DNA from: Verrucomicrobiota bacterium
Lineage (GTDB): Bacteria; Verrucomicrobiota; Verrucomicrobiia; Verrucomicrobiales; DEV007
Reading direction: 5' to 3'
DNA: 47,013 nt
Assembly: GCA_024277195.1 (NCBI GenBank)
Contig: JAJRVS010000009.1
Coordinates: 1 to 47,013 of the forward strand
The translations under genes and the position numbers were made by a program. Numbering within the stretch: position 1 is the stretch's first letter; each line of letters opens with the position of its first letter. Positions 46,389 through 47,013 of the stretch are shown one piece after another. The notes under the pieces are model-generated. The model was not told the origin of the DNA. It searched no databases and saw only the letters and a program-made list of their open reading frames with translations.

Positions 46389-47013
46389 TTATTCCGACTT
46401 CAACAACCGCGCTAACTTCGCAGGATAAGTCTGCGCGCCCGCATCCGCTGTGCCGGCGCCTTTCATGCTCGCCCCATAAGTGATGCTATCCCCAAAACAG
46501 ATAATCGTTCCAGCATCCCACTTAGCTGCTTTAAGCGTTTCATACACTGCCTGGGCAATCACATCATAACCCTCGCTGGTCGGGTGCACCCCATCCTTTG
46601 ATCGACTGTTGGCGACATTCCGCAACAGACTGGACTTTTCAGACCCCGCTCCGCCTTTCTCGAGCAAAACATGCACATCCACCAAACGAACCCCGTCCGG
46701 CTTAGCCAACTTTTTCACCACAGCATTCACATCCGCGATACGATCCTCCGGGCTTCGCTCAGCAAAAAACTCCGCTTTGTGGCGGCTGAACAGCAGCTCA
46801 TTAATACACGGAGGAATGGTCATCAATACCACCTTCGATCCAGACTTAATGAAGCCCTTCACCAATTTTTTTAAATTCTTCTCATACTCCTTGATCGGCA
46901 CCGAATTACCCGAGTTCAAAGCATCATTAGTGCCCACCATCATCACCACCACCTCCGGCTTTTTCGCCAGCACATCCGTCTCCACCCTCTTCAACAAATT
47001 GCGCGTAGAATTA
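46389..47013 (-). CDS. SGNH/GDSL hydrolase with atypical block order, 5' end outside the window
   Basis: The open frame runs off the window edge, beginning in mid-protein with NSTRNLLKRVE (block II), then VVVMMVGTND (block III) and SKDGVHPTSEGYD (block V, with Asp and His of the catalytic triad). Instead of ending there, it continues into ICFGDSITYGASMKGAGTAD, a second or relocated block I carrying the Ser nucleophile, then AKLARLLKSE and the stop. In a normal enzyme block I is N-terminal. Either the upstream part has its own block I and this is the beginning of a truncated second domain, or the fold is circularly permuted. It probably cleaves acetyl or other esters on polysaccharide. Confidence 0.78.
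   Translation of the reverse strand, partial: NSTRNLLKRVETDVLAKKPEVVVMMVGTNDALNSGNSVPIKEYEKNLKKLVKGFIKSGSKVVLMTIPPCINELLFSRHKAEFFAERSPEDRIADVNAVVKKLAKPDGVRLVDVHVLLEKGGAGSEKSSLLRNVANSRSKDGVHPTSEGYDVIAQAVYETLKAAKWDAGTIICFGDSITYGASMKGAGTADAGAQTYPAKLARLLKSE

Follow-up and report, generated by a model that had tools for sequence, protein, structure and literature searches.

Hydrolases of the SGNH (GDSL) superfamily classically carry their conserved blocks in the order I-II-III-V, so that the catalytic residues are read as S-G-N-H. Natural circular permutants of this superfamily are known: AlgX and AlgJ, which are alginate O-acetyltransferases, and the DHHW protein PatB1 of Bacillus cereus have the order H-S-G-N, with the Asp-His pair ahead of the Ser, and altered motifs, GTSYS or KDS and DxH (PMC9487903, PMC4148444, PMC5697884). 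That one superfamily can hold two distinct permutations has a precedent in the cpRAS GTPases, a second and different permutation inside the GTPase superfamily (PMC2430557); their fold is unrelated and the likeness is an analogy only. Here we describe a gene whose best overall explanation, and very probably the correct one, is that its product is a true, naturally occurring circular permutant of an SGNH hydrolase with the block order II-III-V-I and the residue order G-N-H-S. Unlike AlgX, AlgJ, and PatB1, the family to which it belongs keeps canonical motifs and is opened at another position; these G-N-H-S permutants represent a new, separate cut point within the known superfamily. The literature that we searched, in which subscription papers and structure-database surveys were thinly covered, holds no description of the G-N-H-S order, and the permuted SGNH proteins found there were AlgX, AlgJ, and PatB1.

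The window that we analyzed is a stretch of 47,013 nucleotides from a Verrucomicrobiota bacterium and is the entire contig C220 of the source genome; because bases past position 47,013 are absent from the assembly, the permuted gene runs off the contig end (Table 1). About 30 N-terminal residues are missing from it for this reason, including the leader and the glycine of block II. A search of the source assembly for the upstream neighbor of the orthologue described below, intended to locate the lost N-terminus, found none, an empty answer that shows little. In translation order, the open reading frame contains NST (the tail of block II), GTND (block III), DGVHP (block V), IICFGDSITYG (block I), the helix TYPAKLARLLKSE, and then the stop codon. 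This is the order given in the preliminary description, with the chain ending shortly after the serine block. The first quarter of the enzyme domain, including the catalytic serine, thus sits at the end of the chain rather than at its start. As for block II itself, the NST that had been assigned to it does lie inside the window; its glycine falls outside, where the orthologue reads VINAGVGGNST.

Table 1 Features of the permuted SGNH gene, its neighbor, and two copies on viral contigs.
Feature	Position	Strand	Description
Permuted SGNH hydrolase gene	46389..47012	-	207 aa/codons, open at contig end; stop codon 46389-46391
Block III, GTND (oxyanion-hole Asn)	46923..46934	-	From sequence; Asn and Asp unchanged across the 31-member alignment
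Block V, DGVH (catalytic Asp, His)	46584..46595	-	From sequence; Asp and His unchanged across the 31-member alignment
Relocated block I: strand 1, GDS serine motif, helix 1 (TIICFGDSITYG...TYPAKLARLLKSE)	46392..46508	-	
Catalytic serine codon (GDS)	46485..46487	-	Residue 176 of 207; from sequence; Ser invariant in 31 members
Right-handed beta-helix protein, 737 aa	44104..46317	-	Next gene downstream, same strand, 71 bases from the permuted gene
Permuted SGNH gene	L151:2959-3654		Between a fiber-like gene (fn3 match) and an N-acetylmuramoyl-L-alanine amidase gene
Permuted SGNH domain	L152:2323-3621		C-terminal in a 432-aa fiber-like protein, near a tape-measure-like gene

An intact orthologue (L061:4914-5627, 237 aa, 84% identity) is encoded on a 188-kb contig of a Verrucomicrobiota genome of the same genus (DAOUQC010000001.1). 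It starts with MRIAILLWVLSACFVNAKDTTVINAGVGGNST and ends with IVCFGDSITYGSSMKGAGTADADADTYPAKLARLLNGK, followed by the stop codon; between these termini come the leader, INAGVGGNST (block II), GTND (block III), DGVHP (block V), and VCFGDSITYG...TYPAKLARLL (block I). The leader resembles a signal peptide, as judged by eye, and block II follows it directly, leaving too little space for a block I ahead of it. The orthologue is convergent with leuB, the same arrangement as in the window save for the beta-helix gene lying in between. The preliminary description had proposed two explanations for the chain order, circular permutation or a truncated tandem, and had suggested looking for a signal peptide and a GDSIT block in the missing N-terminal region. 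When this region is read in the sister genome, the leader is present and a GDSIT block is lacking before block II; the case named there as telling against permutation, a full block I ahead of NST and then a normal N-terminus, is likewise absent from the orthologue. With leader and block II first and block I and the stop last, the complete gene supports circular permutation, and it also bears out the earlier placement of the new termini, deduced from the clean boundary at the chain end, in the loop between helix 1 and strand 2.

Could the gene instead be a conventional SGNH domain followed by a vestigial second copy, of which only the first helix is left? SGNH-SGNH tandems do exist in the phylum, as in a 505-aa protein with two complete domains (L148:4233-5747, genome G530), but block II of the intact orthologue is not preceded by a block I, and this refutes a truncated tandem for the window gene; complete N-termini refute it for the family as well. 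In a set of open reading frames that includes the orthologue, block I is found only after block V in 40 and only before block II in 8, which are canonical, and on both sides in none of these; in 60 further open reading frames, the block I profile had no match at E below 0.01. That 40 chains have block I last and none has both copies, together with the N-terminus of the orthologue, argues for permutation. Moreover, the C-terminal block I segment is conserved and as constrained as the remainder of the protein (pN/pS 0.15, bootstrap 0.05-0.30), which indicates purifying selection on what would otherwise be a relic; we regard the truncated tandem as highly improbable. Even less credence attaches to an assembly or annotation artefact, or a gene decaying at the contig end. 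The contig end does cut the gene in the source assembly, yet independent assemblies refute this reading: the same order and stop appear on the 188-kb contig of the sister species and in dozens of assemblies besides, and the 84% amino-acid identity has been kept despite synonymous sites that are near saturation (dN/dS of 0.105 between the window and the species of the orthologue).

The permuted proteins are recognizably members of the canonical SGNH/GDSL family (PF13472, Lipase_GDSL_2; 1yzf, 3p94, 4tx1, and Axe2), sharing its motifs I, II, III, and V and its predicted fold; they differ in that block I is C-terminal and the chain has its ends between helix 1 and strand 2. Comparison with solved chains reveals the swap directly. 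The family profile aligns with 1yzf in two exchanged pieces, with profile positions 11-201 on chain residues 28-194 and positions 202-213 (CFGDSVTYG) on residues 3-14, although this second piece is short and weak alone. The relocated block I thus matches the N-terminus of canonical chains, and does so also in 4tx1, where residues 9-49 match profile positions 175-214 by sequence (E 2e-6) and residues 40-213 align with model residues 1-178 by structure (Z 13.6). Among the solved chains listed, none gave a colinear sequence match along the whole profile.

AlphaFold2 predicted a complete SGNH fold for the orthologue (pLDDT 85.7, pTM 0.87) from a 19-row alignment of the orthologue, the window sequence, two viral copies, and canonical fragments; a first run with two sequences only had given pLDDT 61 and pTM 0.68. 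The predicted model has the three-layer alpha/beta/alpha architecture of the SGNH fold, and its C-terminal stretch 181-186 is assigned as a strand. Model residues 1-178 overlay residues 39-191 of 1yzf (Z 17.7, rmsd 1.6 A, 153 residues), and the part of 1yzf left out of this overlay, residues 1-38, is its block I piece. The nearest solved folds include the acetylxylan esterases Axe2 and AlAXEase. The structure comparison listed no chain of the AlgX or DHHW type, an absence that rules nothing out.

To what extent is this arrangement shared? Of the 387 phylum genomes sampled, 38 gave a total of 56 colinear matches to a full-length profile at E up to 1e-45; this profile is stricter than a second one, which spans the junction from block V to block I. 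The junction profile matched 45 of the 387 phylum genomes, a count that includes one or more tandem proteins along with some partial hits, as well as 5 of 75 genomes in the bacterium's own family and 3 of 384 in a class sample. More than 30 loci were checked by eye or by pattern. The distance from DGVH to GDS is nearly constant across relatives; dozens of them repeat both the C-terminal block I and the gap that separates it from block V, so the arrangement is not due to chance. In an alignment of 31 sequences, Ser188, Asn40, Asp151, and His154 (mature numbering of the orthologue) are invariant, as are Cys184 and Tyr208-Pro209, with the Ser embedded in CxGDSxT; the block II Gly is conserved in at least 90%. 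The complete orthologue and its relatives read II-III-V-I in place of the classical I-II-III-V, and G-N-H-S versus the classical S-G-N-H. A few members lack the leader (L120, L122).

Pfam assigns the permuted proteins to PF13472/PF00657, and the PF13472 scores of the window protein (75.2 bits) and the orthologue (85.8 bits) lie above the curated cut-off of 32.9. The best Pfam matches begin at profile positions 16-46, which explains why profile annotation shows these proteins with an incomplete GDSL domain that lacks its serine. Genes of the permuted family thus risk being labeled truncated or inactive; they probably encode complete enzymes.

We built a tree in which block I was returned to the front in silico. 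A single branch separates 37 permuted from 41 canonical rows, with an ultrafast bootstrap of 99, an SH-aLRT of 97, and presence in 200 of 200 bootstrap trees. The split is not a product of the rearrangement, since a quick tree with the block I columns removed from every row returned the identical split with support of 99. Judged from these alignments, the permuted members examined form one clade with a single origin. Because the tree is unrooted, it does not give the direction of change; that the canonical form came first is argued from how widely the canonical order is spread. The permutation may have arisen once, when a tandem duplicate fused and lost its outer halves; vertical descent and transfer would then have carried the permuted form further, also into phage tail regions. 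The tandem protein L148 has the architecture that a route through duplication and truncation needs; considered as an ancestor, it formed very long branches when added to the tree and is too divergent to place, so we draw no conclusion from it. With canonical, tandem, and permuted forms together in one phylum, the group is a naturally occurring case in which evolution by permutation can be tested.

How would such a chain work? The old C-terminal helix would be joined to strand 1 by a short linker, so that the serine strand and its helix are appended at the chain end. The protein would then fold to an ordinary alpha/beta/alpha SGNH core in which the Ser-His-Asp triad and the Ser/Gly/Asn oxyanion hole would be rebuilt; esters should then be hydrolyzed by the usual two-step acyl-serine mechanism. 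Since the SGNH motifs are all intact, an active ester hydrolase is the simplest prediction. The fold has thereby a second natural cut point: its core can be opened between helix 1 and strand 2 and still keep the active site.

Our best guess is a secreted polysaccharide O-acetylesterase: the protein may be exported and strip acetyl or similarly short acyl groups from polysaccharides, a substrate suggested by context. The acetylxylan esterases among the nearest solved folds fit this guess. Permuted domains occur alone, with leader-like N-termini, or fused to CBM4_9, DUF6259, a region with a sub-threshold GH30 C-terminal match, or a ceramidase-like domain. The beta-helix protein encoded beside the window gene has a sub-threshold match to a GH141 insertion domain and provides supporting context for a carbohydrate role. 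Between the two genes, a scan of the minus strand for terminators and promoters gave no informative hits and thus speaks neither for nor against an operon. SGNH enzymes are promiscuous, and the same permuted fold could instead serve as a lipase or thioesterase or in acyl transfer, for example on lipid or peptidoglycan. The phage copies, which adjoin tail and amidase genes, would suit such a role, as would an unusual pairing of a permuted SGNH domain with a neutral/alkaline ceramidase-like domain (PF04734, 48.8 bits) in L142:2897-5092, on the minus strand. More of the domains fused to it, however, are tied to carbohydrates (CBM4_9, DUF6259, GH30C-like), and the window neighbor is GH141-like; we consider a non-carbohydrate activity a less likely, though by no means negligible, alternative. 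A different proposal, that these proteins are distant relatives of the AlgX/AlgJ or PatB1 (DHHW) acetyltransferases and act in O-acetylation of polysaccharides rather than de-acetylation, is very improbable. Both groups are permuted SGNH proteins with the serine after the Asp-His pair (PMC9487903, PMC4148444), but AlgX and PatB1 are cut between blocks III and V and the present family between I and II, no AlgX or DHHW Pfam match appeared at E up to 1, and the motifs here (GDSIT, GxND, DGxH) are canonical, unlike the deviant DxH, GTSYS, or KDS. Taken as a whole, the G-N-H-S permutants probably constitute a previously undescribed monophyletic family of esterases, with one origin independent of AlgX/PatB1, which is common in polysaccharide-degrading bacteria of the Verrucomicrobiota type as a stand-alone and fusion domain and is also present in phage tail regions.

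Two IMG/VR contigs, L151 and L152, carry permuted SGNH genes (Table 1), and both sequences fall within the permuted clade. Among annotated phage records no permuted match was seen, and the matches seen in collections of plasmid and phage records were all canonical SGNH proteins. The most promising of these record matches, from Parabacteroides H4, had the canonical order on inspection.

Several further observations concern the source genome and variants of the domain. The 5.5-Mb source genome (G000) has a large SGNH repertoire, with 32 Lipase_GDSL_2 matches, and encodes a second permuted protein (L009/L062) that carries a C-terminal extension. The beta-helix gene that stands between the permuted gene and leuB in the window is missing from that place in the sister species. 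One permuted member, L124:23-760, has a single in-frame TAG and is probably a decaying copy; similar single in-frame stops occur in genomes G425 and G499. In three very large proteins of 1,486-1,791 aa (L132:1320-6005, L137:6627-11999, and L138:6422-10879), the permuted SGNH domain is C-terminal, and outside it no other Pfam match was found at E up to 0.001. Finally, L002, L037, and L039 join a canonical SGNH domain to a large additional region that, to the eye, resembles a sialidase; the SGNH domain comes first in L002 and last in L037 and L039.
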